A stretch of 54,568 nucleotides of DNA from NCBI GenBank assembly GCA_016182605.1, contig JACPGE010000109.1:1-54568 (forward strand), written 5' to 3'. This document shows, one piece after another, positions 35,718-50,848 of the stretch; position 1 is the stretch's first letter, and every line of letters begins with the position of its first letter. The stretch is from Candidatus Hydrogenedentota bacterium (GTDB lineage: Bacteria > Hydrogenedentota > Hydrogenedentia > Hydrogenedentales > JAEUWI01). Position numbers and translations under genes: made by a program. Under the pieces are notes generated by a model. The model ran no database searches. It had not been told where the DNA came from and was given only the letters and a program-made list of their open reading frames with translations.

Positions 35718-36764
35718 ATGGACGCAAATCCGGCCTTGGGGGTCTTGTTGCACGCGATTGGCGGGCTTGCTGCGGCGAGTTTTTACATACCCTATAAGCG
35801 TGTCCGGCATTGGCAGTGGGAATCCTATTGGCTTGTGGGCGGGATATTCAGTTGGCTGATTGCGCCGCTGCTGGGGGTTGCGCTGATCACTCCCGCGGGC
35901 TTTGGCGCGCTTCAGGATGCCCCGGTGCGCGCACTGATCGGCACCTACGTGTTCGGGGTGCTGTGGGGCATTGGGGGTCTGACTTTTGGTTTGTCCGTGC
36001 GCTATCTCGGACTTTCACTCGGCTATGCGGTGGCGCTGGGTTTTTGCGCGGCCTTCGGCACCATCATTCCGCCCCTGTTCCTGGGCGCCTTTGCTGCGTT
36101 GATCGAGACGGGGTCCGGACTCACCACGTTGCTGGGGGTCGCGGTATGCCTCGGCGGCATTGGTGTATGCGGCTGGGCGGGCATCCGGCGGGATCGCGAG
36201 GCTGGCGCACAGACGTCCTCGGATGGCGCGGTTACATTCAATCTTTTGCGGGGACTCTGGGTTGCCGTTTTCGCGGGTGTCATGAGCGCGTGCATGGCTT
36301 TTGCATTCGCGGCGGGCAAGCCCATTACCGAAGCCGCGCTTGCGGCGGGGGTGGGCCCGACGTTTGTGAATCTTCCCGTGCTGGTGGTTGCGCTGGGGGG
36401 TGGCCTGACAACGAACCTGATCTGGTGCCTCTATCTGAACTGGCGCAACAAGAGCTTCCGCGACTACACGCACGCGGGCGATGCGCCCCTGCTCTGGAAC
36501 TATCTCTTCTCCGCGCTTGCGGGCGGCACGTGGTACTTGCAGTTTTTCTTCTACGGCATGGCCACGACCCGCATGGGGGCGTATGATTTCTCGAGCTGGA
36601 CGATTCACATGGCGTTTATCATTGCGTTCAGCAATGTCTGGGGTCTGCTGTTTGGGGAATGGCAGGGGACGCGCCGCCAGACGATCGTGATCGTGAGCGC
36701 CGGTATTGTGATCCTGGTACTGTCGACAGTGGTGGTGGGCGTGGGGAACTATCTCGCGGTTTAG
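35718..36764 (+). CDS. rhaT: RhaT-type L-rhamnose/proton symporter
   Basis: This 348-residue protein is almost wholly hydrophobic with about ten membrane helices. Its opening (NPALGVLLHAIGGLAAASFY, IPYKRVRHWQWESYWLVGGI) and the YGMATTRMGAYDFSSWTIHM and FSNVWGLLFGEW segments match the RhaT family, which imports L-rhamnose and related 6-deoxyhexoses with protons. It is followed after 21 bases by a sugar-isomerase-family gene. In other bacteria RhaT relatives also serve L-fucose or other deoxy sugars, so substrate is inferred from context. Confidence 0.88.
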   Translation: MDANPALGVLLHAIGGLAAASFYIPYKRVRHWQWESYWLVGGIFSWLIAPLLGVALITPAGFGALQDAPVRALIGTYVFGVLWGIGGLTFGLSVRYLGLSLGYAVALGFCAAFGTIIPPLFLGAFAALIETGSGLTTLLGVAVCLGGIGVCGWAGIRRDREAGAQTSSDGAVTFNLLRGLWVAVFAGVMSACMAFAFAAGKPITEAALAAGVGPTFVNLPVLVVALGGGLTTNLIWCLYLNWRNKSFRDYTHAGDAPLLWNYLFSALAGGTWYLQFFFYGMATTRMGAYDFSSWTIHMAFIIAFSNVWGLLFGEWQGTRRQTIVIVSAGIVILVLSTVVVGVGNYLAV

Positions 36765-36785
36765 GAACGGATGGGGAGCGCAACC

Positions 36786-38204
36786 ATGAAAATCGGGCTC
36801 TACGGGATTGGACTGGACACGTATTGGGGGCAGTTCGACGGGCTATTGGAACGCTTGCAGGGGTATCAGGCGCGGATTGCGGCGCGGTTGCAGGCGGGCG
36901 AGGACGCGTTGGAGGTGGTGAACACAGGCATTGTCGATTCTCCCGCACGTGCGCGTGAGGCGGGGAGCCTCCTGGCCCACGAAGGGGTGGACCTGATTCT
37001 GTTATATGTTTCGACCTATGCCCTCAGTTCGACGGTGCTGCCGGTGGTGCAACGGGCGAAGGCGCCGGTGCTCGTACTCAATCTGCAGCCCGTGGGCGCG
37101 ATTGACTACGCGGCGTTCAATGCGCTGGGCGATCGCGGGAAGATGACGGGCGAATGGCTGGCGCATTGCCAGGCCTGCGCGGCGCCGGAGATTGCGGCGG
37201 TGTTCCGGCGCGCGGGCATAGACTACCACCTCATCACGGGGACGCTTGACGACGACGCAGCCTGGCGCGAAATCCACGAATGGGTTGCCGCGGCGCGGGT
37301 GGCGCATGCTTTGCGCAATGCGCGGGTGGGGGTGCTGGGGCATTACTATTGCGGCATGCTTGACGTCTATTCGGACATGACGCAGCTCTCCGTCGATTTT
37401 GGCGTTCATTTCGAACTGCTGGAGATGTGCGCGTTGCACCGCCACCGGGAAGACGCGGAACCGGAGGCGGTTCTGGCAAAGCTGGAACAGTTTCAGCGGG
37501 AGTTCGAGGTGCACGAGGCGTGTTCCGCGCATGAGCTTGAACGCGCCGCGCGGACCTCGGCCGCCCTGGACGCGCTCGCGGCGGGGAATGCGCTGGATGC
37601 GCTGGCGTATTACTATGAGGGGCAGCCCGGGAGTCCCTATGAAGACATCGCCACTTCGGTGATTGCCGGGAACACGCTGCTCACGATGCATGGCGTGCCG
37701 GTCGCGGGCGAGTGCGAGATCAAGAATGTGCTGGCGATGAAGATCATGGATCTGTTTGGATATGGCGGCAGTTTTTCCGAATTCTACTTGATGGATTTCG
37801 ATGAAGACGTTGTGCTGCTGGGGCACGATGGTCCGGCGCATCCGGCCATTGCGGAGGGGCGCGTGGCTCTGGTGCCGTTGCCGGTCTATCATGGGAAGCC
37901 GGGCACGGGGCTCTCCATTCAGATGAGCGTGAAGCACGGCCCGGTAACCTTGTTGTCGGTGGTGCAGGGGCGGGAGGGCGCGGCGCGGTTGCTGATCGCC
38001 GAAGGGGAAAGTGTTCCCGGGCCGGTCCTGCAGATTGGGAACACGAACAGCCGCTACCGGTTTCCGCTGGGCGCGAAGGGCTTTGTGAATGCCTGGGCCG
38101 GAGAGGGCCCCGCGCATCACATGGCCATTGGCACAGGGCACTTCGCATCGAAGCTGCAGAAGCTGGCTAGCCTGCTGGGCATTGCCCATTGCCGGGTTTG
38201 CTGA
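36786..38204 (+). CDS. L-arabinose/L-fucose isomerase-family protein
   Basis: This 472-residue protein has the three-domain layout of AraA/FucI-type aldose-ketose isomerases: an N-terminal Rossmann-like half (MKIGLYGIGLDTYWGQFDGL, LLYVSTYALSSTVLPVVQRA), a central domain (YYEGQPGSPYEDIATSVIAG, VPVAGECEIKNVLAMKIMDL) and a C-terminal beta-barrel (GKPGTGLSIQMSVKHGPVTL). Acidic and His residues typical of the Mn site are plausible at GECEIK and in LGHDGPAH. The exact sugar is not clear. It lies 21 bases after rhaT, so uptake followed by isomerisation is the natural reading. Confidence 0.8.
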   Translation: MKIGLYGIGLDTYWGQFDGLLERLQGYQARIAARLQAGEDALEVVNTGIVDSPARAREAGSLLAHEGVDLILLYVSTYALSSTVLPVVQRAKAPVLVLNLQPVGAIDYAAFNALGDRGKMTGEWLAHCQACAAPEIAAVFRRAGIDYHLITGTLDDDAAWREIHEWVAAARVAHALRNARVGVLGHYYCGMLDVYSDMTQLSVDFGVHFELLEMCALHRHREDAEPEAVLAKLEQFQREFEVHEACSAHELERAARTSAALDALAAGNALDALAYYYEGQPGSPYEDIATSVIAGNTLLTMHGVPVAGECEIKNVLAMKIMDLFGYGGSFSEFYLMDFDEDVVLLGHDGPAHPAIAEGRVALVPLPVYHGKPGTGLSIQMSVKHGPVTLLSVVQGREGAARLLIAEGESVPGPVLQIGNTNSRYRFPLGAKGFVNAWAGEGPAHHMAIGTGHFASKLQKLASLLGIAHCRVC

Positions 38205-38353: not shown

Positions 38354-38383
38354 TTGACGGTTGATCGGCGATTCTGCTCCAAT
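38354..38383 (+). promoter_or_regulatory. Putative sulfatase promoter
   Basis: TTGACG (38354-38359), an 18-base spacer and TCCAAT (38378-38383) lie 70 bases before the sulfatase ATG. The -10 box is weak. Confidence 0.35.
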
Positions 38384-38452
38384 GCCCACTGGCTATCGCG
38401 GCCAGGCATTTCCGGGCGAACAGACGAGATGGCATCCAGGGAGGACGCATTC

Positions 38453-39895
38453 ATGCAGGGGAAACCAGTGACGCGGCGTGCTTTTTTAGGGCGATCCCTG
38501 GGGGCTGCGGGCGCGGCGGCGCTGGCGCAGGCGTGGCATTCGGGCGCGGCGGCACAGGGTGACACACGGAAACCCAATTTTATCGTGATCTTCACCGACG
38601 ATCAGGGGTATAACGATCTGGGTTGCTTTGGGTCGCCGCACATCAAGACGCCCAACATCGACCGGATGGCGGCAGAGGGCATGAAATTTACGGACTTCTA
38701 TGCGTCCGCGCCGGTGTGCACGCCGTCTCGGGCATCGCTCATGACGGGGTGCTATGCACAACGGGTGGGACTCGCCGCGATGCCCAACAAGAACGGCACG
38801 CTGGAGCCGCCAGCCCATGTGCTTTTCCCCTATTCCACGTGCGGGATCAACGCGGATGAGATCACCGTGGCGGAGGGGTTGAAGGGACTCGGTTACGCGA
38901 CGGCGTGTGTCGGCAAATGGCATCTTGGCCACCTGCCGCCCTTCCTTCCGACGCGGCATGGGTTCGACCACTACTACGGCATTCCCTACAGCAACGACAT
39001 GGCGCCTTCACCGCTGATGCGCGATGAAACGGTTCTGGAAGAGCCTGCGGTACAGGCGGCACTTACGGAGCGGTACACGGAGGAAGCCATTCAATTTATT
39101 TCCGCCAACAAGGATCGGCCCTTCTTTCTGTATCTTCCGCACAACATGCCCCATACACCGCTCCACGTGTCGCCGCAGTTTTCGGGCAAGTCCGCGGGCG
39201 GTCTGTATGGCGACGTTATTGAATGTATTGACTGGAGCGTGGGGCGCATACTCGACACGGTGAAGGGACTAGGACTGGATGAGCACACGGTCGTTATCTT
39301 CACGTCGGACAACGGCCCGTGGCTCGTGAAGGGGGAAGACGGCGGCTTTGCCGCGCCTTTGCGCGCGGGCAAGGGCACAACGTATGAAGGCGGAATGCGC
39401 GTGCCGTGCATCATGCGCTGGCCGGGCCGCATTCCCGCGGGATCAGTCTGTGCGGAGGTGGCGAGCACGATCGATCTGCTGCCCACGCTGACCAAGCTTG
39501 CCGGCGGCGGCCCGCCCGAGGATCGCATTATCGACGGCAAGGACCTCTGGCCGCTCATGTCGGGCGAGGCTGGCGCGGTCAGTCCGCATGAAGCGTTCTA
39601 CTACTACTTTGGGCAGGAGCTTCACGCCGTGCGCAGCGGCCCCTGGAAACTGAAATTTGAGACCAGTTTGCGCGGGGAGGACATCTACCGCGCTGCGTAT
39701 CAACGGGACGATGTGAAGATACCGCCCGCGCTGTACAACCTGCGGACGGATCCCGGTGAACAGAAGAACCTGTATAACGCGCACCCGGATGTCGTGGAGC
39801 GGCTGAGCGCGCTGGCCGATCGGGCGCGGGAAGATCTGGGCGATTCCCGCACCGGCGCAGTGGGGAAGGGCCTTCGTGCGATGGGCACGGCCTGA
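38453..39895 (+). CDS. Tat-exported type I sulfatase
   Basis: This 480-residue sulfatase hydrolyses sulfate esters. It has a twin-arginine leader (TRRAFLGRSLGAAGAAALAQ), the metal-binding IFTDDQGYNDLG segment (Asp49, Asp50), and the CTPSR motif in which Cys89 must be converted to formylglycine. Later motifs include GKWHLGHLPPFLPTRHGFD, YLPHNMPHTPLHV and FTSDNGPWLVKGE. It is arylsulfatase A-like in length. The ATG at 38453 follows AGGGAGG by eight bases; the longer frame from 38354 overlaps the promoter and is rejected. Its neighbours suggest a sulfated deoxysugar polysaccharide as substrate. No formylglycine-generating enzyme is in the window. Confidence 0.93.
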   Translation: MQGKPVTRRAFLGRSLGAAGAAALAQAWHSGAAAQGDTRKPNFIVIFTDDQGYNDLGCFGSPHIKTPNIDRMAAEGMKFTDFYASAPVCTPSRASLMTGCYAQRVGLAAMPNKNGTLEPPAHVLFPYSTCGINADEITVAEGLKGLGYATACVGKWHLGHLPPFLPTRHGFDHYYGIPYSNDMAPSPLMRDETVLEEPAVQAALTERYTEEAIQFISANKDRPFFLYLPHNMPHTPLHVSPQFSGKSAGGLYGDVIECIDWSVGRILDTVKGLGLDEHTVVIFTSDNGPWLVKGEDGGFAAPLRAGKGTTYEGGMRVPCIMRWPGRIPAGSVCAEVASTIDLLPTLTKLAGGGPPEDRIIDGKDLWPLMSGEAGAVSPHEAFYYYFGQELHAVRSGPWKLKFETSLRGEDIYRAAYQRDDVKIPPALYNLRTDPGEQKNLYNAHPDVVERLSALADRAREDLGDSRTGAVGKGLRAMGTA

Positions 39896-39975: not shown

Positions 39976-40042
39976 GATAACGGCTGTTGATTGTCAGTGA
40001 AGGCATTCGGGGGCGGCCATACAATCCGGGGGGGATTTGTCC

Positions 40043-42541
40043 ATGGTATCAGGTCATGCAAAGGCGCGTTCAGGCACCGGCTTCATGCAGATCACGATTC
40101 TCTTATCTGTTGTCGCGTTTGCGGCGGGGGAGGAGAAGCGCGTCGATCCTTTGGCCATGGCCGCGCGGCATCCCATCGTGCGGGAGCGGCCCGGGCCGGA
40201 TTTTTTTGAGGGGGCCCTGCTTGGCAACGGTGGTCTGGGCGCTGTCGTGACGACCCGTCCTGATGCCGTGGTGGTGCATTTCGGGCACAACAATGTGTGG
40301 GACATTCGCGTATCCGAGGAGAACCGGGAGAAGCTCGGCACGTTCCAGGAGGTCTTCAAGAAAGTGAAGGCGATTCCGGAGGATGCGCGGGATCTGGAAT
40401 CCGACCCGTGGTACCGCGAATACATTCAGATGACCCAAGAGAACTACGGCAAGCCGTACCCGAGGCCCTTTCCGTGCGGTTCCCTTCTGCTGGGCTTCGA
40501 CCGGTGGAAGGTGGAACTGCTGGGTTACCGGCTCGACATTGCGACGGGGCTGTGTCGTGTGCAACTGCTGATTGATGGGGATGCCGCGCAGCTTCAGTTG
40601 TTCACGGATATGGAATCGGACCAACTCTGGATACGGCTGACGGATGCGGAGAACCGGCTTGTGCCCAATTGCTTCGAGCGCGTGCGCCTCATTCCCGATC
40701 CGGACACGCCGAAGAATCTGCCGGACTATGAAGCCAGTGGCGATCTGGAAAGGGGCATGCTGTCATTCAGGCAGGTTCTGCCCAGTCTTGCGCCAGGGAA
40801 AAACGCATCGGCGGCGCGTGTTCCGGATCGTGCATTTCGATTGTCGGTGCGGGTAAACGGGAAGCTGGCGGTGGGCGAGCGGCTGAACTGGGAGGGGCGT
40901 CCCGAACGCATGGGTGCCCTGGAACGCGCGATCGAATCGCAGGCGCCCTTTGTGGCGTGCGTGCAATTGGACGAAGGGCTGGCGGCCGATCTCGACGCGC
41001 GGGTGGAGGCGCTGGCCATGCCAGATGAGGCGGGGTTCAACTTTGCGTCTGCGCGATCGCAAATGCAGTGGAGGGAATACTGGGCGCGATCCGGCGTGGC
41101 GCTCGATGATCCGTTCCTGGAGCAGGTGTGGTACTGGAACCATTATTTCTTCCACTGCGCGGCAAAGGCGGGCGTGAATTGTCCGGGGCTATTTGCGAAC
41201 TGGAGTTACCGCGGTATCGGCACGGCCTGGCACGGTGACTACCACATGAACTACAACACGCAGCAGCCCTTCTGGCTGCCCTTTTCGAGCAACCGCGTCG
41301 AATTGAACCTGCCCTACGTGGAACTGATCGAACGGCTGCTCCCCATGAGCAAGCAGTGGGCGCGGGAGTACTACGGGCTGCGCGGCGCGTACTTTCCGCA
41401 CTCTGCCTATCCTGTAGAAATGACGATGTCCCCCTATCCCGTTCCCACCTGGGGCTGGGAGATCTGCGAGACGCCGTGGAGCGTGCAGGGGCTGTGGTGG
41501 CACTACCTCTACACGATGGACAAGGAGTTTCTGCGCACGCGGGCATTCACGCCGATGCGCGAGGCGGTGCTCTTTCTGGTGGATTACATGAAGCGTCCAG
41601 AGGCGCGCGGTCCGCAATGGGGCGATGACAAGTACCACGTGTTCCCGACGGTGCCGCCGGAGCTCTATGGGCTTCGTCCCGGCTTCAAATACAACTATGA
41701 TTGTCTCGTGGACCTGACGCTGATCAAGTTTGTCATGAAGGCCTACCTGGAGGCCACGCGCGTATTGGAGGTGGAAGACGGCGAAGCGGAGACGATCCGC
41801 GACGTGCGCGACATACTCGCGCATTTTCCCGAGTATCCCACGGCGGAATCGGCAGAGGGAACGGTGTTTGTATCGGTGCCCGGCGAACGTGCCGGCGTGG
41901 TCTACAACGTGCCGAACAGTTTGATGACTGTGTTTCCCGGCGAGGACCACGGGCTGCACTCGACGCAGGGCGTCTTCGAAGTGCTTGCCAATACGTACCG
42001 CAACAACCAGAACGAAGGCGGCAACGATTTGGTCTTTCTGAATCTGCAGGCGGCGCGGCTGGGGCTGCTCGATCTGGAGCGGTTCAAGCGCCAAGTGAAC
42101 TATTGCCTGGTCGAGAACGGAACCTGCACGGACATGGTGCTTCAGGTGCATGGCCGCTACAGCGACACCACGGCCTTTGACTTCATGCGGCCCATGGGCG
42201 TCTGGTTTGAGAATTTTGGGTTGCCCGTGGTGATCAACGAGTGCCTGTTGCAGAGTTACAACGGCACGATACGGCTCTTCCCCAACTGGCCGTTGGAGCG
42301 GCCGGCAGCCTTCAGCACCCTACGCGCGGTGGGCGCTTTCCTCGTGAATGCGTCGTGCTCCGGGGGCGCGGTGGAGCGCGTGGTGATTCTCAGTGAGGTG
42401 GGGGGCACCCTTCGCGTCGTGAATCCGTGGAAGACGGGGGCCCGCGTGTTCACGCCTGCGGGCGAAGTGACCAATCGTGAGCCGCTGATCGCGATCGACA
42501 CCCTCCCGGGCGAGACTGTCACCCTGCTTCCCTCGCCATGA
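40043..42541 (+). CDS. Secreted GH95-like glycoside hydrolase
   Basis: This 832-residue protein has a signal segment (FMQITILLSVVAFAAG), an N-terminal beta-sandwich (FFEGALLGNGGLGAVVTTRP), a central alpha/alpha toroid (HGDYHMNYNTQQPFWLPFSS, GWEICETPWSVQGLWWHYLY) and a C-terminal beta domain (YNGTIRLFPNWPLERPAAFS, TLRAVGAFLVNASC). This layout and the NYN-TQQ motif near residue 401 match GH95, a family of alpha-1,2-L-fucosidases and alpha-galactosidases. A GGGGGGGA tract sits seven bases before the ATG at 40043; a TTG at 40037 and an ATG at 40085 are alternatives. Fucose or a related deoxysugar is the expected product. Confidence 0.8.
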   Translation: MVSGHAKARSGTGFMQITILLSVVAFAAGEEKRVDPLAMAARHPIVRERPGPDFFEGALLGNGGLGAVVTTRPDAVVVHFGHNNVWDIRVSEENREKLGTFQEVFKKVKAIPEDARDLESDPWYREYIQMTQENYGKPYPRPFPCGSLLLGFDRWKVELLGYRLDIATGLCRVQLLIDGDAAQLQLFTDMESDQLWIRLTDAENRLVPNCFERVRLIPDPDTPKNLPDYEASGDLERGMLSFRQVLPSLAPGKNASAARVPDRAFRLSVRVNGKLAVGERLNWEGRPERMGALERAIESQAPFVACVQLDEGLAADLDARVEALAMPDEAGFNFASARSQMQWREYWARSGVALDDPFLEQVWYWNHYFFHCAAKAGVNCPGLFANWSYRGIGTAWHGDYHMNYNTQQPFWLPFSSNRVELNLPYVELIERLLPMSKQWAREYYGLRGAYFPHSAYPVEMTMSPYPVPTWGWEICETPWSVQGLWWHYLYTMDKEFLRTRAFTPMREAVLFLVDYMKRPEARGPQWGDDKYHVFPTVPPELYGLRPGFKYNYDCLVDLTLIKFVMKAYLEATRVLEVEDGEAETIRDVRDILAHFPEYPTAESAEGTVFVSVPGERAGVVYNVPNSLMTVFPGEDHGLHSTQGVFEVLANTYRNNQNEGGNDLVFLNLQAARLGLLDLERFKRQVNYCLVENGTCTDMVLQVHGRYSDTTAFDFMRPMGVWFENFGLPVVINECLLQSYNGTIRLFPNWPLERPAAFSTLRAVGAFLVNASCSGGAVERVVILSEVGGTLRVVNPWKTGARVFTPAGEVTNREPLIAIDTLPGETVTLLPSP

Positions 42542-42590: not shown

Positions 42591-42649
42591 AGCAGTTGCC
42601 GCTGCACGTGGTGACGCGGCGTGCAGAACGGCTGGATCAACGAGGGACT

Positions 42650-44125
42650 ATGGCTACAGACTCTGTGCCGCGCTTGCGCGTGGTGGACGGCGCGCTCTTC
42701 ATGCGCAACATTGCCATGCGCCTGCCCTTCCGCTACGGGAAGGCGGTGCTCGTGGCCGCTCCGCTGCTCCATCTCAAGCTGACGCTGGAGACGCCCGCCG
42801 GCAAGAGCGTGACGGGTGTTGCCGCGGACATGTTGCCGCCCAAGTGGTTCGACAAGTCACCCGCAAAGACCTTTCAAGACAACATCGCGGATCTGCTGGC
42901 GGCAGTGAAGATTGCGGGTCAGGCCTATCACGACGCGGCGCGCACTCCCGTGCAGCCTTTCGAACTCTGGACGGCGGCACACTCGTTGACCCTTGATCGG
43001 GGCCGGGCTGCCGGGCTCAATGGATTGACGGCACAGTTTGGTTCCTCGCTCTACGAGCGGGCCGCGTTGGATGCTTTTGGGAAGAGCGCAGGCGAGGGAT
43101 TTCACAGCCTTCTCCGTTCGGGCCGCCTGGGCATACACGCCCATCCGTTCTTGACTGAAATTGGAGCCGATGCCTCGACGACCTGGGTGCCCGCGGAAGC
43201 GCCGCGGAGCGTTTTTGTGCGGCATACGATCGGCCTGGGGGATCCCCTGTGCGACGAGGAGCTTGATGCGAATGCGCGTCGCGTTGAGGGACTGCCGGTC
43301 ACGGTGGAGTCCTGGATTCGCGAGGCGGGCATTCGCTACTTCAAGATCAAGGTCAGTGGGAACACGGCCACGGATGAGGCACGTTTGGAGTCCATTCAGC
43401 GGCTTCTTCAGGATTGTGCCCCGCCTGACTGCGCCGTTACGGTTGATGGCAACGAGCAGTTTCATTCGATGGAGGAGCTTCAAGGCTGGTGGCAAACGCT
43501 TTCGCAATGCGGCGCACTCGCGGAGTTCTGGCCGCGCGTTCTCTATTTTGAACAACCGGTGGATCGCGCACGCGCCTTTGACGTGCGCGCGGAAGACATC
43601 GCCGCTCTGGGCCCTGATTTTCCGCCGCTCCTCATCGACGAGTCCGACGATGCCGTGGACAGTTTTCATCGGGCAGCCGGCTGTGGCTATCGCGGTGTGA
43701 GCGCGAAGAATTGCAAGGGCGTCTTCAAGTCCATCCTGAATGCCATGTACATCGGTCATCTCAATGCGCGTCAGCCGGGCGCGTACTTCCTCTCCGCGGA
43801 AGACCTCTGCAATCAGCCCATCGTGCCGTTGCAGCAGGATCTTTGCGTGGCGAGCGCCCTTGGCATCACCCATGCCGAACGCAACGGGCACCACTACGCG
43901 GGTCTCATGAACCACGTCTCCGAAGAGGAGATTCGAACGGCGTTGTCGGTGAATGGCACGCTATACGAAGCCGCTGGCGCGAGCGCACGGCTTCGGATTC
44001 GCGAGGGCCGCCTCGACGTAAGCAGTCTGCACACCCCGGGGCTCGGTGCGGCCGGCCCCGTGGATTTCGAGCATATGACGCCGCTCGATGAGTGGCGCTT
44101 CAGTTCCTTGGGCATCGAAGAATAG
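42650..44125 (+). CDS. Enolase-superfamily (mandelate-racemase-like) dehydratase
   Basis: This 491-residue protein has the enolase-superfamily barrel: KIK (Lys232, Lys234) on one strand, then metal ligands Asp266 (VTVDGNEQF), Glu301 (YFEQPVDR) and Asp330/Glu331 (LLIDESDDAV), and Lys353 (GVSAKNCKG) on the far side. Such enzymes dehydrate sugar acids, for example L-fuconate or L-rhamnonate, or epimerise substrates. The protein is longer than usual (about 400), with extra residues between the capping domain and the barrel. Its position after a transporter, isomerase, sulfatase and glycosidase suggests a sugar-acid step. The next gene starts 25 bases later. The start at 42650 is uncertain: AGGG is only three bases upstream. 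Confidence 0.82.
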   Translation: MATDSVPRLRVVDGALFMRNIAMRLPFRYGKAVLVAAPLLHLKLTLETPAGKSVTGVAADMLPPKWFDKSPAKTFQDNIADLLAAVKIAGQAYHDAARTPVQPFELWTAAHSLTLDRGRAAGLNGLTAQFGSSLYERAALDAFGKSAGEGFHSLLRSGRLGIHAHPFLTEIGADASTTWVPAEAPRSVFVRHTIGLGDPLCDEELDANARRVEGLPVTVESWIREAGIRYFKIKVSGNTATDEARLESIQRLLQDCAPPDCAVTVDGNEQFHSMEELQGWWQTLSQCGALAEFWPRVLYFEQPVDRARAFDVRAEDIAALGPDFPPLLIDESDDAVDSFHRAAGCGYRGVSAKNCKGVFKSILNAMYIGHLNARQPGAYFLSAEDLCNQPIVPLQQDLCVASALGITHAERNGHHYAGLMNHVSEEEIRTALSVNGTLYEAAGASARLRIREGRLDVSSLHTPGLGAAGPVDFEHMTPLDEWRFSSLGIEE

Positions 44126-44150
44126 GCACGGACCATACGGGAATCCCATC

Positions 44151-45146
44151 ATGATCAAGACCACCGTCGTCGGCAGTTATCCCACCCCACTCTGGTTGCG
44201 CATACACAGCACGCAGGAATCCCTTCGCGACGCCATCGTCGTCGTGCTCCAGGCGCAGGAACGCGCCGGCATCGATGTGGTGGCGGATGGAGAACTCTAC
44301 CGCTGGGACATCAACCACGCCGAAACGAACGGCATGATCGACTTCTTCGTCCGGCCCCTGGAAAATATCCGGCGCGATCTGAACTACGATGAACTGCGCG
44401 CCTGGCGCGCCAACCAGCAAATGAAATTCCGCGCCGCGCCCCCCGGCATTGTCACCGGGCCGGTTGGCGCGGGCCTGCTCGATCTCTCCGGCAACTATGC
44501 CCTCTTTCGCAATCTGACGGAGAAGCCCAAAAAATTCACGGTCACCAGTCCGTACATGCTTGCGAAGACCCTTGTAAATAAGCACTATCCGGATACGGAG
44601 TCCCTGATGATGGCGCTCGCGGATATCTTGCGCGAACAGCTTGCCGACGTGGATGCGGATGTGGTGCAGGTTGACGAGGCGAATGTCACCGGACATGCCG
44701 AGGACTGTTTGATGGCCGCACGCGGTATCAACCGGGTCCTCGAAGGGGTGCGTGGGGAAAAAGCGGTCCACCTCTGCTACGGCAACTATGGCGGACAGAC
44801 CATTCAAGAGGGCGCGTACGCGCGGCTGCTTCCCCTGCTTAACGCGCTGGAGGCCGACCATGTCGTACTCGAAATGGCCCGCAGGGACGCCGCCGATCTC
44901 AGCGCGCTCAAAGAGGTCCGGCCGGAACTCGGCCTGGGCATTGGTGTCATCGACATCAAGGACAACGAAGTCGAGTCCCCCGATTGTGTCGCCCGCCGCA
45001 TTGACGCCGCCGCGAAGACACTTGGGGTCGAACGAATCCGCTATGTCCACCCCGACTGCGGATTCTGGATGCTCCCGCGCCCGGTTTCCGATGCCAAGAT
45101 GCGCGCCCTGGTTGAGGGCCGGAACCGCTTTGCGGGTACTGCATAA
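44151..45146 (+). CDS. Core MetE-like zinc methyltransferase (lacks the folate domain)
   Basis: This 331-residue protein equals only the C-terminal catalytic half of cobalamin-independent methionine synthase. The zinc ligands are all present: His207 and Cys209 (AVHLCYGNYGG), Glu241 (VVLEMARRD) and Cys303 (HPDCGFWML), along with VDEAN (174-178). Full MetE (about 750 residues) needs an N-terminal half to use folate; stand-alone core-MetE proteins in archaea and some bacteria take methyl groups from corrinoid proteins or other donors. Here it follows an enolase-superfamily gene by 25 bases, so the methyl donor may be linked to sugar metabolism. This last point is speculation. The ATG at 44151 starts directly at the conserved core. 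Confidence 0.82.
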   Translation: MIKTTVVGSYPTPLWLRIHSTQESLRDAIVVVLQAQERAGIDVVADGELYRWDINHAETNGMIDFFVRPLENIRRDLNYDELRAWRANQQMKFRAAPPGIVTGPVGAGLLDLSGNYALFRNLTEKPKKFTVTSPYMLAKTLVNKHYPDTESLMMALADILREQLADVDADVVQVDEANVTGHAEDCLMAARGINRVLEGVRGEKAVHLCYGNYGGQTIQEGAYARLLPLLNALEADHVVLEMARRDAADLSALKEVRPELGLGIGVIDIKDNEVESPDCVARRIDAAAKTLGVERIRYVHPDCGFWMLPRPVSDAKMRALVEGRNRFAGTA

Positions 45147-45450: not shown

Positions 45451-46326
45451 TCATTCGTCAGTTTCCACGTCGTTTTCACGATGTTCGAGCCGTTCTACTT
45501 CCTTCGGCAACTTTTTGCCTTCGGATTGCAATCTGCGCTCTATTTTCTTCGTGTCTTCGGACCGAGGCAGCTTCTCTGGAATAATCCCGCGCTTTCCGAG
45601 CAGGTCGCGCACATCGGCGTTATTGCGCACGTGTTCGCTGGTTATCTCGGGCTCGGTCTTCAAGTCATCGCGCTTGATGTTGAAGTTGGTGATTTCATTT
45701 GCGAAGTCTTTCGCCTTGATTGTGATGGTAGGAAGGAAGTCGGCCAGCGGCCGGCCCTTCGCAACGCTCAGGCGGTCTTTCATGTCCTGGGTCGAGAGCC
45801 CGCCGAACAACGCCATGTCGCCCTTGCTGCGAATGCGTCCGAAGGACTGCTCATCGCCCACACGCTCGTAGATGATGCCCGAGAGTTCCTTCTCCGAGGC
45901 CGTCAACTTCCGCCGCGCGGTGAGCCGCTCCACTTCCGCGAGCCGCTGCTCGATAATCTCCTGCTTCCGCGTCTGCACCGCGAAATAGGTCTGGGCAAAG
46001 GCGATCACCGGCTTTGCCGGGTCGCCATTCTGCGCAATGAGATAGCAGGCGTAGCGGGTGAGCGCAATATCATCTACAGGGCGCTGCGCCCCAGACCCTA
46101 TGCCGACCATTTTCCTGATATCAAGAAAATGGTCGGATGCGACGTAACCTGCATTCTGACAAGCACTTCGGGCCTTTTCTATAACTTTGAAAAAATTCTC
46201 CCATTTGGCGTATCCAAGCAGGCTTTGCAGGTCCCGGGCGAGCCAGAATTCGACCCCCGACTCCTCTTCATGCTTCACCAATTGCTCAAAGTCACCGTGT
46301 AATTGGACGATGAGTTCCCGCTTCAT
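45451..46326 (-). CDS. dinD: DinD-like DNA-damage-inducible protein
   Basis: The 291-residue product matches DinD: a BRO-N-like opening (FEQLVKHEEESGVEFWLARD, LQSLLGYAKWENFFKVIEKA), the DHFLDIRKMVGIGSGAQRPV segment, then DIALTRYACYLIAQNGDPAK and a helical C-terminus. DinD inhibits RecA filaments in E. coli and is SOS-induced. No LexA-like box was recognised upstream. The ATG at 46326 follows GGAGAGG by six bases; an in-frame ATG at 46356 is disfavoured. A 34-bp near-perfect palindrome lies within the coding sequence at 46103-46136. The gene is an accessory trait often carried by mobile DNA and lies downstream of the DUF1501 gene. Confidence 0.88.
   Translation of the reverse strand: MKRELIVQLHGDFEQLVKHEEESGVEFWLARDLQSLLGYAKWENFFKVIEKARSACQNAGYVASDHFLDIRKMVGIGSGAQRPVDDIALTRYACYLIAQNGDPAKPVIAFAQTYFAVQTRKQEIIEQRLAEVERLTARRKLTASEKELSGIIYERVGDEQSFGRIRSKGDMALFGGLSTQDMKDRLSVAKGRPLADFLPTITIKAKDFANEITNFNIKRDDLKTEPEITSEHVRNNADVRDLLGKRGIIPEKLPRSEDTKKIERRLQSEGKKLPKEVERLEHRENDVETDE
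46103..46136. repeat. 34-bp near-perfect palindrome inside dinD
   Basis: Arms CCGACCATTTTC (46103-46114) and GAAAATGGTCGG (46125-46136) are perfect inverse complements. The 10-base centre contains the palindrome TGATATCA, leaving only one mismatched pair. It encodes the conserved HFLDIRKMVG motif of the protein. Confidence 0.85.
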
Positions 46327-46446
46327 TTCATGCCTCTCCAACCCGTTTGGACACATGTCAGTGCGCAGAGCGCGACCGCCCCGCTTCCCAACCGTCAGGT
46401 GCTCTTTTCAAATCACATTCACCGGCCCCCACCGCCTCCTCCGCGC

Positions 46447-47856
46447 CTACGCGATGATCTCCTTGATGACCTTTCCGTGTACGTCGGTGAGGCGGCGGTC
46501 GATGCCGTCTTTGCGCACGGTGAGGCGTTCGTGGTCGATGCCGAGGAGGTGGAGCACGGTGGCGTGGAGGTCGTAGCAGTAGGTTTCGTTTTCCGCGGTC
46601 TTGTAACCCCAGTCGTCGCTTTGCCCGTAGGAGATGCCGGGATTGACGCCCGCGCCCCAGAGCCAGGTGACAAAACTGCCGCCGTTGTGATCGCGGCCCG
46701 CGCCCGCCTGGGCAAAGGGGGTGCGCCCAAACTCGGTGGTCCAGATCACGAGCGTGTCTTGGTCCATGCCGCGCGCTTTCAGATCGCGCAGGAGGGTCGC
46801 AATGGGGCGGTCCACACTGGCGGCCATGGGGGGGAGTTCCTCCACGATGTTTGCGTGGTTATCCCAGTTTTTGACCGCGCCCTGGGCGCCGCTCCAGACC
46901 TGCACAAAGCGTACGCCCCGCTCGACGAGGCGTCGCGCGAGCAGGCAGCGCCGTCCAAAATCATTCGCTATCTCGGCGTCCATGCCGTAGGCGTTTTGCA
47001 GCCACTGGGGTTCGCGGGAGACGTCGAAGGCTTCGGGCGCGGAGAGTTGCATCTTTGCGGCGAGTTCGTAGCTGTCGATGCGCGCATCCAGCCGCGTGTC
47101 GCCGGAGCGTCCGGCGGCGTAGCGGCGGTTCATTCCGTCGAGCAGCGCCAGGCCCGCCGCGTCTTGCGCCGGGTTCGCAAATGCGTAGGCGGGATCCGCG
47201 AAGAGATCGGGAACGGGCTGGGGCGCGGCCGCGTTGATGACGGTGCCCTGGTGAATCACGGGAAGAAAGCCCGAGGAGAAGCAGCCCTTCTGATTGTAGG
47301 GCAGGCCGCGCGCATCGGGGAGCACGACGAAGGTGGGCAGGTTGTCCACCACGTTGCCGAGGGCGTAGGAGATCCACGAGCCCATGCAGGGGAAGCCGGG
47401 CAAGAGGAAGCCGGAGTTCATCATGTAGGTGCCGGGGCCATGTACATTCGTCTTGGTGGTCATCGCCATGAGGAAGGCCATCTCATCGACGAGCTTTGCC
47501 TGTTCGGGAAACACGCTGCTCACCCAGCGTCCGGATTCGCCGTGCTGTGCGAAGGCGAAGGGACTTTTCATGATGGCGCCGGCCGGGGCGGTGAAGCCGT
47601 CGGGCTTCTCTTTCGGCCCGAGTTCCTGCCCGTGCAGCCGTTCGAGCTCGGGTTTGTAGTCGAAGGTGTCCATGGGGCTCGCACCGCCCGTCATGAAGAG
47701 CTGGATCACGCGGCGTGCGCGCGGGCGAAAGGGCGGGAGCGTTTCCGCGGACGCATCGCGCGCCATCATTTGTGCCAGGGCGAGGGCCGCGAAGCCGCCG
47801 CCTGCTTCCGCCAGAAAGTTCCGGCGCGTCATTCGTTGCTGGTGCAAAGTGTCCAT
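46447..47856 (-). CDS. Tat-exported DUF1501 family protein
   Basis: This 469-residue protein has a twin-arginine leader (MTRRNFLAEAGGGFAALALA) and DUF1501 motifs (VIQLFMTGGASPMDTFDYKP, WVSSVFPEQAKLVDEMAFLM, TEFGRTPFAQAGAGRDHNGG, TVLHLLGIDHERLTV). DUF1501 proteins belong to the alkaline phosphatase/sulfatase-like fold and are abundant in Planctomycetes and relatives; their substrate is not established. The ATG at 47856 lies four bases after the stop of the DUF1549/DUF1553 gene, the standard pairing. A longer frame from 47985 overlaps that gene and is rejected. Confidence 0.92.
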   Translation of the reverse strand: MDTLHQQRMTRRNFLAEAGGGFAALALAQMMARDASAETLPPFRPRARRVIQLFMTGGASPMDTFDYKPELERLHGQELGPKEKPDGFTAPAGAIMKSPFAFAQHGESGRWVSSVFPEQAKLVDEMAFLMAMTTKTNVHGPGTYMMNSGFLLPGFPCMGSWISYALGNVVDNLPTFVVLPDARGLPYNQKGCFSSGFLPVIHQGTVINAAAPQPVPDLFADPAYAFANPAQDAAGLALLDGMNRRYAAGRSGDTRLDARIDSYELAAKMQLSAPEAFDVSREPQWLQNAYGMDAEIANDFGRRCLLARRLVERGVRFVQVWSGAQGAVKNWDNHANIVEELPPMAASVDRPIATLLRDLKARGMDQDTLVIWTTEFGRTPFAQAGAGRDHNGGSFVTWLWGAGVNPGISYGQSDDWGYKTAENETYCYDLHATVLHLLGIDHERLTVRKDGIDRRLTDVHGKVIKEIIA

Positions 47857-47860
47857 GTGC

Positions 47861-50848
47861 TCAATCCAGAAATAGAAATTCGTTGCTGTTGAAAAGAACC
47901 CGGCAGAAGGCGGGCATGCCGTGTTCCCGGGCGAATGCGGTGTAGGCCGCAGCTTCTTCCACAGTGGGCGTGCGCAGCCAGGCAAGTTGCACGGCGCGCG
48001 TGACCTGCGCGTCGATGGATGCGGTTTCCGCGGCTACACGCTGCGCGAGCGCTTCGCCATGGGCCAGTACAAATTCGTTGTTGTAAAGCGCGAGGGCCTG
48101 AAGCGAGGATACGGAAGCGGTGCGCTTTGGCGACAGCAGGCCCAGATCGGGGAAGTCCAGCGCTTCGAGGAAGGGATCGGCGATACCCCGCCACACAAAG
48201 CGGTAGATGCTGCGGCGGGTCTGACGCGCGTTCCGCCAGTCGTAGGCCCCGTAGTCGAGGGCAGGCGTAATCTGCGGCCCCTTGGCCTCCGTGAAATGAC
48301 GATCGCCCGGCCCGCCCATCGTGAGATCGAGCCGGCCCGACACAGCGAGCACGCTGTCGCGGTAGGCGTCGGCATCGAGGCGGGCAGCATGCTGGCGCCA
48401 GAGCAGCCGGTTGTCCGAATCGGCGCTTGCGGCATCCGCGCGATCTCCCGACGATTGCCTGTAGGCATCGCTGGTGACGATGAGCCGATGCAGCGCGCGC
48501 AACGAGCCCTTGGCCTCATCGCGAAACCAGACCGCGAGCCAGTCGAGCAGTTCCGGATGGGACGGCACGCCGCCCATGCGGCCCAGGTCGCTCGGCGTGT
48601 TACAGATCCCCTCGCCGAAGTGATAGTGCCACACGCGGTTTACAATGCAACGCCAGGTCAGCACATTGTCCGGATGCGCAATCCAGTCCGCCAGCGCGGC
48701 ACGGCGCGCCGCCTCGGGCCCGGCTGCGGCTTGGTCGAAGCGCGCAGGGAGATGGGTGAGGGCGGTGAGGGCGCCGGGATTCACCAATGCGCCGGGCTTC
48801 TCCAGGTCGCCGCGCACCATGAGATGCACCGGCTTGGGTGCGTCCAGGGATCTGCGCATCACCGCAACTTCGCCATCGGGAATCTCCACCGCGGGCGCCG
48901 CCGCATAGACAACCGCCTGTGCCGGGAGCTGGTCGAGCGCGTGGCGCGCGGTGTGGCCGAGTATGGCGGAGGCAATGGCGGTGTGCTGCGCCTGTGTGCG
49001 ATCCGGTTCTGGCACGTCCAGCGCGTCCAGCACGGCGGCGGAAAAGGGGATCGCGGATTCGGCGTCGTCTGCCGTGGCGGACAGACGGATGGCGCCGATC
49101 AGGTGGCCGCCCCCGTGCGACTGTTTGAGTGTGACGGCGATGCGCGATTCTGGCGTGAGCTGCACCGGTTCGGCCAACTCGAATACCGCGACGTGGTCCG
49201 TGCCTTCCGCGGGGTGAATGCCCCATGCTGTGGCCGCGTCCCCGTCTATCGCGCGGTCTATAGCCCAGTCGATTTGATTGAAGTCTGCGGAGGCCCTGCG
49301 AATGGGCAAGGGCATGGCTTGCGCGGTGCCGGGCGTAAAAAGGCGCACTTCGAATTCGGAGAGGTGGAGATTGCCATTGTCCGCGCGGCCCGGCCCGCCC
49401 ATGGGCAGGCCTTCCTGCGCGAGCACTTCCAGTCGAATCGCTGTGATCGTATTCAGGGCAGTCGAGGCCGTTACCGTGTAGACCTCCTTCTCAGGACGCG
49501 CACCGCTTGCCACGATCACTCCGTCCGCGCCCAGGCTCAGTTCGGATCCTTCCGCGGCCAGGAAGGTCTCCACGTCGAGCGTGTTCCACTGCGCGCCCCG
49601 GCCATAGCGGCCCTGCCAGGCGCGCACGCGATCGTTGTTCTCGGGTGTGAGGAGTGCGGACGCATCGCCGCTTTCCACGGCAGACAACAACGCGGTCCAT
49701 TCGCGCCGTGCGCGGGCCACGGCAGGATCGGCGTCATAGGCCACGTCCCCCTTCAGCACCCCGGCGAAGACCGCCTGCAATGCGTAGTAATCCTCCTGCG
49801 GGATGGGATCGAACTTGTGATCGTGACAACGCGCGCAGTTGGCCGTGCTTCCGAGAAAGGCGGCCGTGCATTGCGTGACCAGGTCGTCCCGATCCAGGTA
49901 ATCGAAGGTCACGGTGGAGGTGGCGTAGGTGCTCAGGTCGAAATTCCCCGCGCCGAGGAAGCCGAGGGCGGCGGTGAGGCCGGTCTCCTCGGGGAAGAAG
50001 TAATCGGCGGCGAGTTGTTCGCGGATGAAGCGCGGCCAGGGCGTGTCGTTGTTCAACGATGCGATGACGTAATCCCGGTAGCGCCACGCGTGGTCCCGCG
50101 CCAGATCGTGCTCATAACCATGAGAGTCGGCAAAATGAACCGTGTCGAGCCAGTGCCGCGCCCAGCGTTCGCCGTGGCGCGGTGAAGTGAGCAGGCTGTC
50201 CACGAGTTTGTCGTAGGCCAGGGGATCGGGGTCGGCCACGAAGGCGTCCAGGGCCTCGGGCGTGGGCGGCAGGCCCGTGAGATCGAGAGAGACGCGCCGC
50301 ATGAGGGTGCGCCGGTCCGCGGGTGGTGAGGGTGCGATGCCGGCTGCGTCGAGCTTCTCCAGAATGAACGCGTCGATGGGATGGGCGGCGCGCGCGGGTA
50401 CCGCGGGCTGGACGAGTGGCAGGCTGGACCAATGGGGCGCCTTGTCCTCGGGTGTGCCCGCGAAGGCATCCGGCCATATGGGGCCGCCGTCGATCCAGGC
50501 CTTCAGCAGGGCGATTTCAATATCCGAGAGGGGCGGCGTATCGCTGTCGGGCGGGGGCATCGGCTCGAGGCCGCTGGCATGCGTCACCCGCTGGATGAGC
50601 GCGCTGGCCAGGCTGTCGTGCGGCGCCATGGCAACCTGGCCACTGTCGCCGCCGCGAAGCGCGGTGTCGCGCACGTCCAGGCGGTACCCGCTCTTTTGCT
50701 TCTCCGGCCCGTGGCATGCGTAGCAGCTCCGCTGCAAAATGGGAAGAATGTCCGATTCGAAATCGGGTACTGCGACACCGGCCGAAGCGGCGATGGGTGC
50801 GATCAAGAGCGCACCGGCAATACATCGCATCTTAGGCCAATGAAGCAT
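47861..50848 (-). CDS. Planctomycete-type cytochrome c / DUF1549-DUF1553 protein
   Basis: This 995-residue exported protein has a signal peptide (IAGALLIAPIAASA), an N-terminal PSCyt1 heme-c domain (CYACH at 42-46, GYRLDVRDTALRGG), DUF1549 (HPIDAFILEKLDAAGI, RVSLDLTGLPPTPEALDAFV, RHGERWARHWLDTVHFADSH), a galactose-binding-like insert at about 430-580 and a C-terminal DUF1553 domain (NVLTWRCIVNRVWHYHFGEG, SHPELLDWLAVWFRDEAKGS). Such proteins pair with DUF1501 proteins and are thought to act in the periplasm or outer envelope; the reaction is unknown. GAAGGG lies about seven bases before the ATG at 50848. It is co-transcribed with the DUF1501 gene. Confidence 0.93.
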   Translation of the reverse strand: MLHWPKMRCIAGALLIAPIAASAGVAVPDFESDILPILQRSCYACHGPEKQKSGYRLDVRDTALRGGDSGQVAMAPHDSLASALIQRVTHASGLEPMPPPDSDTPPLSDIEIALLKAWIDGGPIWPDAFAGTPEDKAPHWSSLPLVQPAVPARAAHPIDAFILEKLDAAGIAPSPPADRRTLMRRVSLDLTGLPPTPEALDAFVADPDPLAYDKLVDSLLTSPRHGERWARHWLDTVHFADSHGYEHDLARDHAWRYRDYVIASLNNDTPWPRFIREQLAADYFFPEETGLTAALGFLGAGNFDLSTYATSTVTFDYLDRDDLVTQCTAAFLGSTANCARCHDHKFDPIPQEDYYALQAVFAGVLKGDVAYDADPAVARARREWTALLSAVESGDASALLTPENNDRVRAWQGRYGRGAQWNTLDVETFLAAEGSELSLGADGVIVASGARPEKEVYTVTASTALNTITAIRLEVLAQEGLPMGGPGRADNGNLHLSEFEVRLFTPGTAQAMPLPIRRASADFNQIDWAIDRAIDGDAATAWGIHPAEGTDHVAVFELAEPVQLTPESRIAVTLKQSHGGGHLIGAIRLSATADDAESAIPFSAAVLDALDVPEPDRTQAQHTAIASAILGHTARHALDQLPAQAVVYAAAPAVEIPDGEVAVMRRSLDAPKPVHLMVRGDLEKPGALVNPGALTALTHLPARFDQAAAGPEAARRAALADWIAHPDNVLTWRCIVNRVWHYHFGEGICNTPSDLGRMGGVPSHPELLDWLAVWFRDEAKGSLRALHRLIVTSDAYRQSSGDRADAASADSDNRLLWRQHAARLDADAYRDSVLAVSGRLDLTMGGPGDRHFTEAKGPQITPALDYGAYDWRNARQTRRSIYRFVWRGIADPFLEALDFPDLGLLSPKRTASVSSLQALALYNNEFVLAHGEALAQRVAAETASIDAQVTRAVQLAWLRTPTVEEAAAYTAFAREHGMPAFCRVLFNSNEFLFLD

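Follow-up and report, generated by a model that had tools for sequence, protein, structure and literature searches.

A recurrent gene pair of a stand-alone MetE core and an enolase-superfamily enzyme: a possible methyl-transfer module

Introduction

In the genome of a Candidatus Hydrogenedentota bacterium, a gene encoding a protein that corresponds to the catalytic core of the methionine synthase MetE lies immediately downstream of a gene encoding an enolase-superfamily enzyme. The pair is found in a 54,568-nucleotide stretch of DNA (positions 1 to 54,568 of contig JACPGE010000109.1, assembly GCA_016182605.1) that is referred to here, in its entirety, as the window; the genomes and loci with which it was compared are designated by G and L numbers, respectively, the window genome (6.76 Mb) being G000. 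Homologues of the two genes are found side by side in several phyla, suggesting an undescribed means of methyl uptake from a small acid, which may be a methylated sugar acid.

Core methionine synthases occur widely, but few of their methyl donors are known; a defined and recurrent enzyme partner makes the question of the donor a testable one. Four families (MesA to MesD) and their residues have been defined (Price et al. 2021, PMC7857596). A 2025 paper questions what core-MetE homologues do in aerobic marine bacteria (PMC12478193) and deletion of a Mes-like gene in Phaeobacter has been reported (PMC12366255). Searches of the open-access literature brought to light no paper that links a MetE core to an enolase.

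The stand-alone MetE core

The open reading frame of the downstream gene spans 44088..45146 (+), with the ATG at 44151 as the probable start, giving a protein of 331 amino acids (44151..45146). This comprises the MetE catalytic core and no other domain: the match to the Pfam Meth_synt_2 profile (PF01717) reaches 77.7 bits (cut-off 21) and covers positions 3–320 of 324. An AlphaFold2 (AF2) model with a predicted local distance difference test score (pLDDT) of 91 most closely resembles the solved structure of MesD (3RPD; Z 37.5 over 312 residues), with the C-terminal domains of MetE proteins matching at Z 26–32. All four zinc ligands are present, namely His207 and Cys209 (within the sequence HLC, 44769..44777), Glu241 (44871..44873) and Cys303 (45057..45059), all on the forward strand, as are the homocysteine-binding residues Ser9, Glu48 and Asp175. 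The initial annotation, which had described a free-standing core with a complete zinc site, is borne out on both counts, and its residue numbering is exact when counted from the ATG at 44151. The seven catalytic residues are kept in all 55 members of the family described below, pointing to zinc-bound homocysteine as the probable acceptor.

The protein also carries an eight-residue insert (residues 52–59, 44304..44327 (+), consensus FDINHPDT) directly after Glu48. In a 20-row alignment the insert is present in all 18 family rows. A second alignment has it in each of the four family rows compared there; it is absent from MetE, MesD, split MetE, the core encoded at L098, H1 and a second PF01717 protein of G000, with a partly similar stretch in G040b. 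Its position is one at which another methyl donor could bind.

A quickly built tree of 68 sequences, in which the reference branches are long, places the 55 family members on one side of a single branch (SH-aLRT, the Shimodaira–Hasegawa-like approximate likelihood ratio test, 100). The remaining 13 sequences, which do not include MesA, MesB or MesC, comprise among others Escherichia coli MetE, the split MetE of Natrinema, Acinetobacter MesD and the second PF01717 protein of G000. To judge from this tree, the core proteins constitute one family separate from MetE, split MetE and MesD; placement in a folate-dependent MetE clade, which would have told against the initial proposal, was thus not obtained. 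The G000 paralogue (G000:C1:18011-19036, locus L060) is 26–31% identical to the family, falls in a separate clade and has copies in G001, G004, G010 and G014.

No match to the folate-binding half (PF08267) was found anywhere in the 6.76 Mb window genome, the core itself having already been described from the window sequence as lacking this half, and a true folate half was present in just one of 20 carrier genomes (as a full MetE in G072), the remaining matches being weak cross-matches to the core proteins themselves. A split or full-length folate-dependent MetE was rejected on these grounds. A MesD/MesX system was likewise rejected, MesX not being found in the carriers and the core lying in a different clade. 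The search for MesX (PF08908) found none in 56 carrier genomes, although 14 control genomes also gave none; the Pfam model itself recognised plasmid-encoded MesX at 532 bits. Against the NCBIfam model NF002119, which we take to be the model covering MesA, the window core scores 90.9 with a cut-off of 258.

The enolase-superfamily partner

The upstream gene (42650..44125 (+)) ends 25 bp before the start of the core gene on the same strand and encodes a protein of 491 amino acids if translated from its probable ATG start at 42650. A longer frame (42596..44125) opening with TTG would encode 509 amino acids, the first 21 of which are disordered in the model; the residue numbers used below are those of the 509-residue form. 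The protein is elusive at the sequence level: it falls below the Pfam cut-off for MR_MLE_C (PF13378; 22.2 versus 29.4 bits), no NCBIfam model provides a name for it, and searches for relatives in the PDB gave none with phmmer and weak ones only with a profile. The AF2 model (pLDDT 90), however, matches muconate-lactonizing enzymes (MLEs), dipeptide epimerases and the NSAR/OSBS group (N-acylamino-acid racemases) at Z 27–29, confirming by fold the proposal that the upstream partner is an enolase-superfamily protein; the probable start at ATG 42650 is also the one first proposed.

Residues that are invariant across 44 homologues include K250, K252, D284, E319, D348, K371, E402, D403 and E428. In the model, K250 and K252 lie on strand 2 (248–252), D284, E319 and D348 at the ends of strands 3–5, K371 immediately after strand 6 (367–370) and E402 and D403 on strand 7 (398–404). 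No conserved histidine is found on strand 7 in the 44 homologues. The hallmark of the MLE subgroup is a KxK motif on strand 2 and a lysine after strand 6, which act as an acid/base pair, whereas sugar-acid dehydratases of the mandelate racemase (MR) type have a histidine on strand 7 together with an aspartate on strand 6. MLE-type enzymes do, however, number a dehydratase, OSBS, among them. With its modelled fold and predicted metal ligands on strands 3, 4 and 5, the protein is a member of the enolase superfamily, and the conserved residues and predicted strands look like those of the MLE subgroup. An MR-type sugar-acid dehydratase (fuconate, galactonate) is not supported, in view of the missing strand 7 histidine and the position of K371. 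The initial annotation had labelled the protein a sugar-acid enzyme; the active site does not yield that label, because its residues are MLE-like rather than MR-like or fuconate dehydratase-like.

Pairing of the two genes in other genomes

The two genes occur together far beyond the window. Taking E ≤ 4.7e-111 for the core and E ≤ 1e-40 for the enolase, the core was found in 11 of 68 genomes of the phylum Hydrogenedentota, the enolase in 14 and both in 10, with 2.3 expected. In 384 Verrucomicrobiae-type genomes (the class of G073, which contains the locus L126 titled Verrucomicrobiales), the corresponding numbers were 39, 42 and 30, with 4.3 expected (Fisher p 4e-27, a statistic that ignores kinship between genomes). 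Divergence of the two proteins is also correlated: across 46 genomes a Mantel test gave r 0.56, and none of 5000 permutations reached as high a value.

In 19 loci from Hydrogenedentota, Planctomycetota and Verrucomicrobiota the two genes are no more than 2 kb apart. Six of these 19 were reached solely via the enolase scan, making this a biased count; the unbiased figures are 5/11 for Hydrogenedentota and 8/39 for the Verrucomicrobiae-type genomes. Gene order is not fixed: the enolase gene comes first in nine loci and the MetE gene in eight (overlapping by four bases in L210), with the two being divergent in the other two, and well-supported branches of the enolase tree imply at least eight changes of adjacency. 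Pairing of the homologues is thus conserved in several phyla and beyond chance, so that the proposal that it would recur in relatives, for which a survey of conserved neighbourhoods had been suggested, holds. Juxtaposition with one and the same enolase in both gene orders is hard to account for without a shared function.

The core is usually not the sole methionine synthase of its host, because MetH is present in 32 of the 39 Verrucomicrobiae-type carriers (with no match in seven), close to the rate for the class as a whole (331 of 384 with, 53 without). MetH is also present in G000, and the idea that the core serves as the sole housekeeping methionine synthase is accordingly weak. Among the 13,721 open reading frames of 147 loci centred on one or other of the two genes, no homologue was found of the corrinoid, pterin or homocysteine domains of MetH, the N-terminal half of MetE or MesX, with the controls being found.

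Genomic context

In the window, the pair closes a run of six genes on the same strand. The first four encode a RhaT-type L-rhamnose/proton symporter (35718..36764 (+); PF06379, 254 bits; NF010024, 458 bits, slightly below the cut-off of 468), an arabinose/fucose-isomerase-like protein (36771..38204 (+); PF11762, 32.7 bits, cut-off 25), a sulfatase (38354..39895 (+); PF00884, 204 bits) and a GH95-type glycosidase of the alpha-L-fucosidase/galactosidase family (40037..42541 (+); PF22124, 116 bits), which counts alpha-L-fucosidase structures among its matches and ends 108 bp before the ATG of the enolase gene. The nearest relative, L044, encodes a core 81% identical to that of the window and has the pair but not the sugar genes, its sulfatase being on the opposite strand. 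For this reason the sugar operon can be taken as context for the window genome only, and was rejected as the general context of the pair.

Beyond the pair in the window, and convergent with it, lies a gene for a DinD-like protein (45451-46356 (-); NF008573, 357 bits versus a cut-off of 242), followed by a DUF1501 gene and a PSCyt1/PSCyt2/PSD1 (DUF1549/DUF1553) pair (46447-50848 (-)), these being family names that allude to planctomycete cytochromes.

Enzymes of sugar metabolism recur at other loci. Among the 106 enolase loci left once duplicates are removed, 11 encode an aldo/keto reductase most similar to L-galactose dehydrogenase, its distance from the enolase never exceeding 3 kb. MR-type enolases are near in 10 loci, uronate-isomerase-like genes (BH0493, E 1e-132) in eight and URO-D-family proteins in three. 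In L196, the core gene is part of a run that includes L-fucose isomerase (FucI; 994 bits, cut-off 775), a rhamnulokinase-like kinase, an alcohol-dehydrogenase-type protein and two short-chain dehydrogenases/reductases. For the MetE core, the data are too thin for a distance profile of neighbouring families to give any firm enrichment.

Three Chloroflexi loci (L087, L101 and L139) combine the enolase with an NMT1-type ABC transporter, URO-D-family proteins, a second enolase and MocA oxidoreductases. The URO-D protein that was compared with solved structures, that of L139, is closest to the methylcobalamin:coenzyme M methyltransferase MtaA (4AY7, 3e-59). A fourth Chloroflexi locus, L098, has the same transporter cluster with the enolase and an ordinary MetE core, so that the enolase accompanies two different zinc methyltransferase folds. 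The URO-D cluster may represent a further methyl-transfer pathway that makes use of this enolase. Expansion of the enolase superfamily has been described in SAR202 Chloroflexi (PMC6946804).

Several further associations concern one or both of the two genes. In L192 (10667-11839 (-)), L204 and L221, the gene immediately preceding that of the core, in the same orientation, encodes a Rieske [2Fe-2S] oxygenase with a VanA_C domain, the assignment coming from Pfam for the L192 copy and through clustering for the other two; oxygenases of this type include O-demethylases. In L221 the core copy (G199:C26:34159-34776) is shortened, interrupted by a stop and evidently decaying, beside an apparently intact Rieske gene. 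Na+/solute symporters lie beside the pair in L082, L109, L126, L130 and L205, together with a small partner in the last four. A CrtO-like FAD oxidoreductase is encoded directly beside the pair in a planctomycete (L138:8250-9851) and in a Verrucomicrobiae-type genome (L194:2234-3841) and could be a third component of the module considered below. The enolase gene is adjoined by a CYTH-domain gene (0 to -4 bp) in L045 and L046 (G010 and G033) and by a DUF72 gene in L049, the latter being 103 bp away in L051. In L067:7070-12798 (Gemmatimonadetes), two tandem enolase genes are flanked by an argininosuccinate-lyase-like gene and an M20 peptidase gene; the M20 peptidase also adjoins the enolase in L080, L115 and L134, which suggests a role for the enolase in N-acyl amino acid metabolism in some lineages.

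A possible methyl-transfer module

We tentatively favour, with somewhat less than even confidence, the idea that the two genes make up a methyl-transfer module in which the methyl donor is tied to the enolase. The core would bind zinc and homocysteine as MetE does, the zinc-bound thiolate attacking a methyl group to form methionine; the methyl group would come from a small-molecule donor rather than from methyl-folate or a corrinoid protein. The enolase would either make the donor, by proton abstraction beside a carboxylate followed by elimination or epimerisation, or process the demethylated product. The pairing itself is what leads us to infer that a substrate or product of the enolase supplies the donor. 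The most plausible candidates would be O-methylated sugar-derived acids, because oxidoreductases, isomerases and dehydratases acting on L-sugars and uronates are repeatedly found around both genes. The initial annotation had raised a methylated sugar or a corrinoid protein as the source of the methyl group. The sugar half of this proposal is conceivable, given the sugar enzymes around the pair or its separate halves in the window, in L196, in the 11 aldo/keto reductase loci and in the eight loci with a uronate-isomerase-like gene; the corrinoid half fares badly, with no MetH-like corrinoid domain encoded in the 147 loci.

One specific scheme, which we consider improbable in this precise form, is the non-oxidative demethylation of methylated sugars via an enol-ether intermediate. 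A methylated aldose would be oxidised to the methylated aldonate (for example, a 2-O-methyl sugar acid derived from 2-O-methyl-L-fucose), from which the MLE-type enolase would remove water to give a 2-methoxy-enoate, a methyl enol ether. An inert methyl ether would thereby be turned into a reactive one, an enol ether giving up its methyl group much more readily than an alkyl ether, and the core would transfer the methyl group to zinc-bound homocysteine to yield methionine and a 2-keto-3-deoxy sugar acid. Elimination of this kind would come naturally to the enolase, because enzymes of this superfamily abstract a proton beside a carboxylate.

A number of observations weigh against a dedicated module. 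The core and enolase genes are no more than 2 kb apart in only 8 of the 39 Verrucomicrobiae-type carriers and 5 of the 11 in Hydrogenedentota, and many neighbours are unrelated housekeeping genes. Nine genomes have the core without the enolase and 12 the enolase without the core, and the co-occurrence test takes no account of species phylogeny. The sugar genes vary between loci, with none in the nearest relative L044. Finally, the core follows a Rieske oxygenase in three loci and an aspartokinase in one (L209), indicating other roles.

A rival view is that the core represents a fifth core methionine synthase family, ordinary or back-up in function and linked to the enolase by a shared lifestyle rather than by chemistry. 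The intact homocysteine and zinc residues, MesD as the closest solved relative, the aspartokinase gene upstream in L209, an aminotransferase-like gene 70 bp downstream in L047 (seen on inspection of the sequence) and the seven Verrucomicrobiae-type carriers with no MetH match are all consistent with this. We nevertheless consider it unlikely: MetH is present in the other 32 carriers, its lack is no commoner than in the class at large (53/384), and repeated juxtaposition with one enolase in both orders does not fit easily. An alternative that keeps the chemical link, and that strikes us as rather improbable, is that the enolase epimerises a betaine-like or other onium carboxylate whose N- or S-methyl group is then taken by the zinc-homocysteine core. 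There are precedents for both halves, hydroxyproline-betaine 2-epimerase being an enolase-family enzyme that epimerises a betaine and BHMT transferring a methyl group from a betaine-type donor to zinc-bound homocysteine. The MLE-type active site would suit such a reaction, and the structural matches include the Pelagibaca enolases 4H2H and 2PMQ, which we take to have a betaine role, but many MLE-group enzymes match just as well. The symporter and small partner beside the pair in L109, L126, L130 and L205 and the Rieske/VanA_C oxygenase upstream of the core in L192, L204 and L221 could also be accommodated, yet it is sugar oxidoreductases and isomerases that recur around the enolase and not betaine genes.

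Two further readings concern the core alone. The methyl group might be delivered by a methyl-corrinoid protein whose gene lies away from the pair, as proposed for MesA to MesC, and methylcobalamin is used in vitro by characterised core synthases (PMC7857596). The 147 loci encode no MetH-type corrinoid or pterin domain (the genome-wide search for corrinoid proteins was confined to MetH), and we regard this reading as very unlikely. Alternatively, the protein might not be a methyltransferase at all, using its zinc for thiol addition or a lyase reaction. Epoxyalkane:CoM transferase shows that the MetE-core fold can carry out thiol chemistry other than methyl transfer, and the family-specific insert lies at the active site. 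The invariance of the three homocysteine-binding residues in 55 of 55 members speaks against it, and we find this idea highly doubtful.

Comparison with known systems

Of the known core synthases, MesD has several features in common with the proposed module. It too is a stand-alone core of ~340 amino acids with identical zinc and homocysteine residues, its structure (3RPD) is the closest solved one, and it likewise requires a partner protein, MesX. The window core is, however, only ~27% identical to Acinetobacter MesD and belongs to another clade, its recurrent partner is an enolase-family enzyme rather than MesX, and it has an insert after Glu48 that MesD lacks. In the enol-ether scheme the enolase, as the maker of the methyl donor, would be analogous to MesX for MesD. 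MesA, MesB and MesC are also MetE cores that lack the folate half and have the catalytic residues seen here; the partners known or proposed for them are corrinoid proteins of methanogenesis or of Wood–Ljungdahl anaerobes (PMC7857596). Full-length and split MetE proteins share the fold of the catalytic domain and differ in having an N-terminal folate half.

The enolase, for its part, resembles the branch containing the muconate-lactonizing enzymes, NSARs and dipeptide epimerases in its fold, metal ligands, KxK motif on strand 2 and lysine after strand 6. It differs in its length (480–510 amino acids), in scoring below the Pfam and NCBIfam thresholds and in having conserved motifs of its own (RHTxGLxDP, KNCKG and ERNGHHY).

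The described demethylation of a methyl sugar in marine bacteria, that of 6-O-methyl-D-galactose from porphyran, proceeds by a cytochrome P450 route (PMC10033563). That reaction is oxidative and releases formaldehyde, whereas the reaction proposed for the enolase–MetE pair would be non-oxidative and would conserve the methyl group. Should the donor prove to be sugar-derived, the pair would provide bacteria that feed on complex glycans with a methyl-conserving alternative to P450 demethylation.

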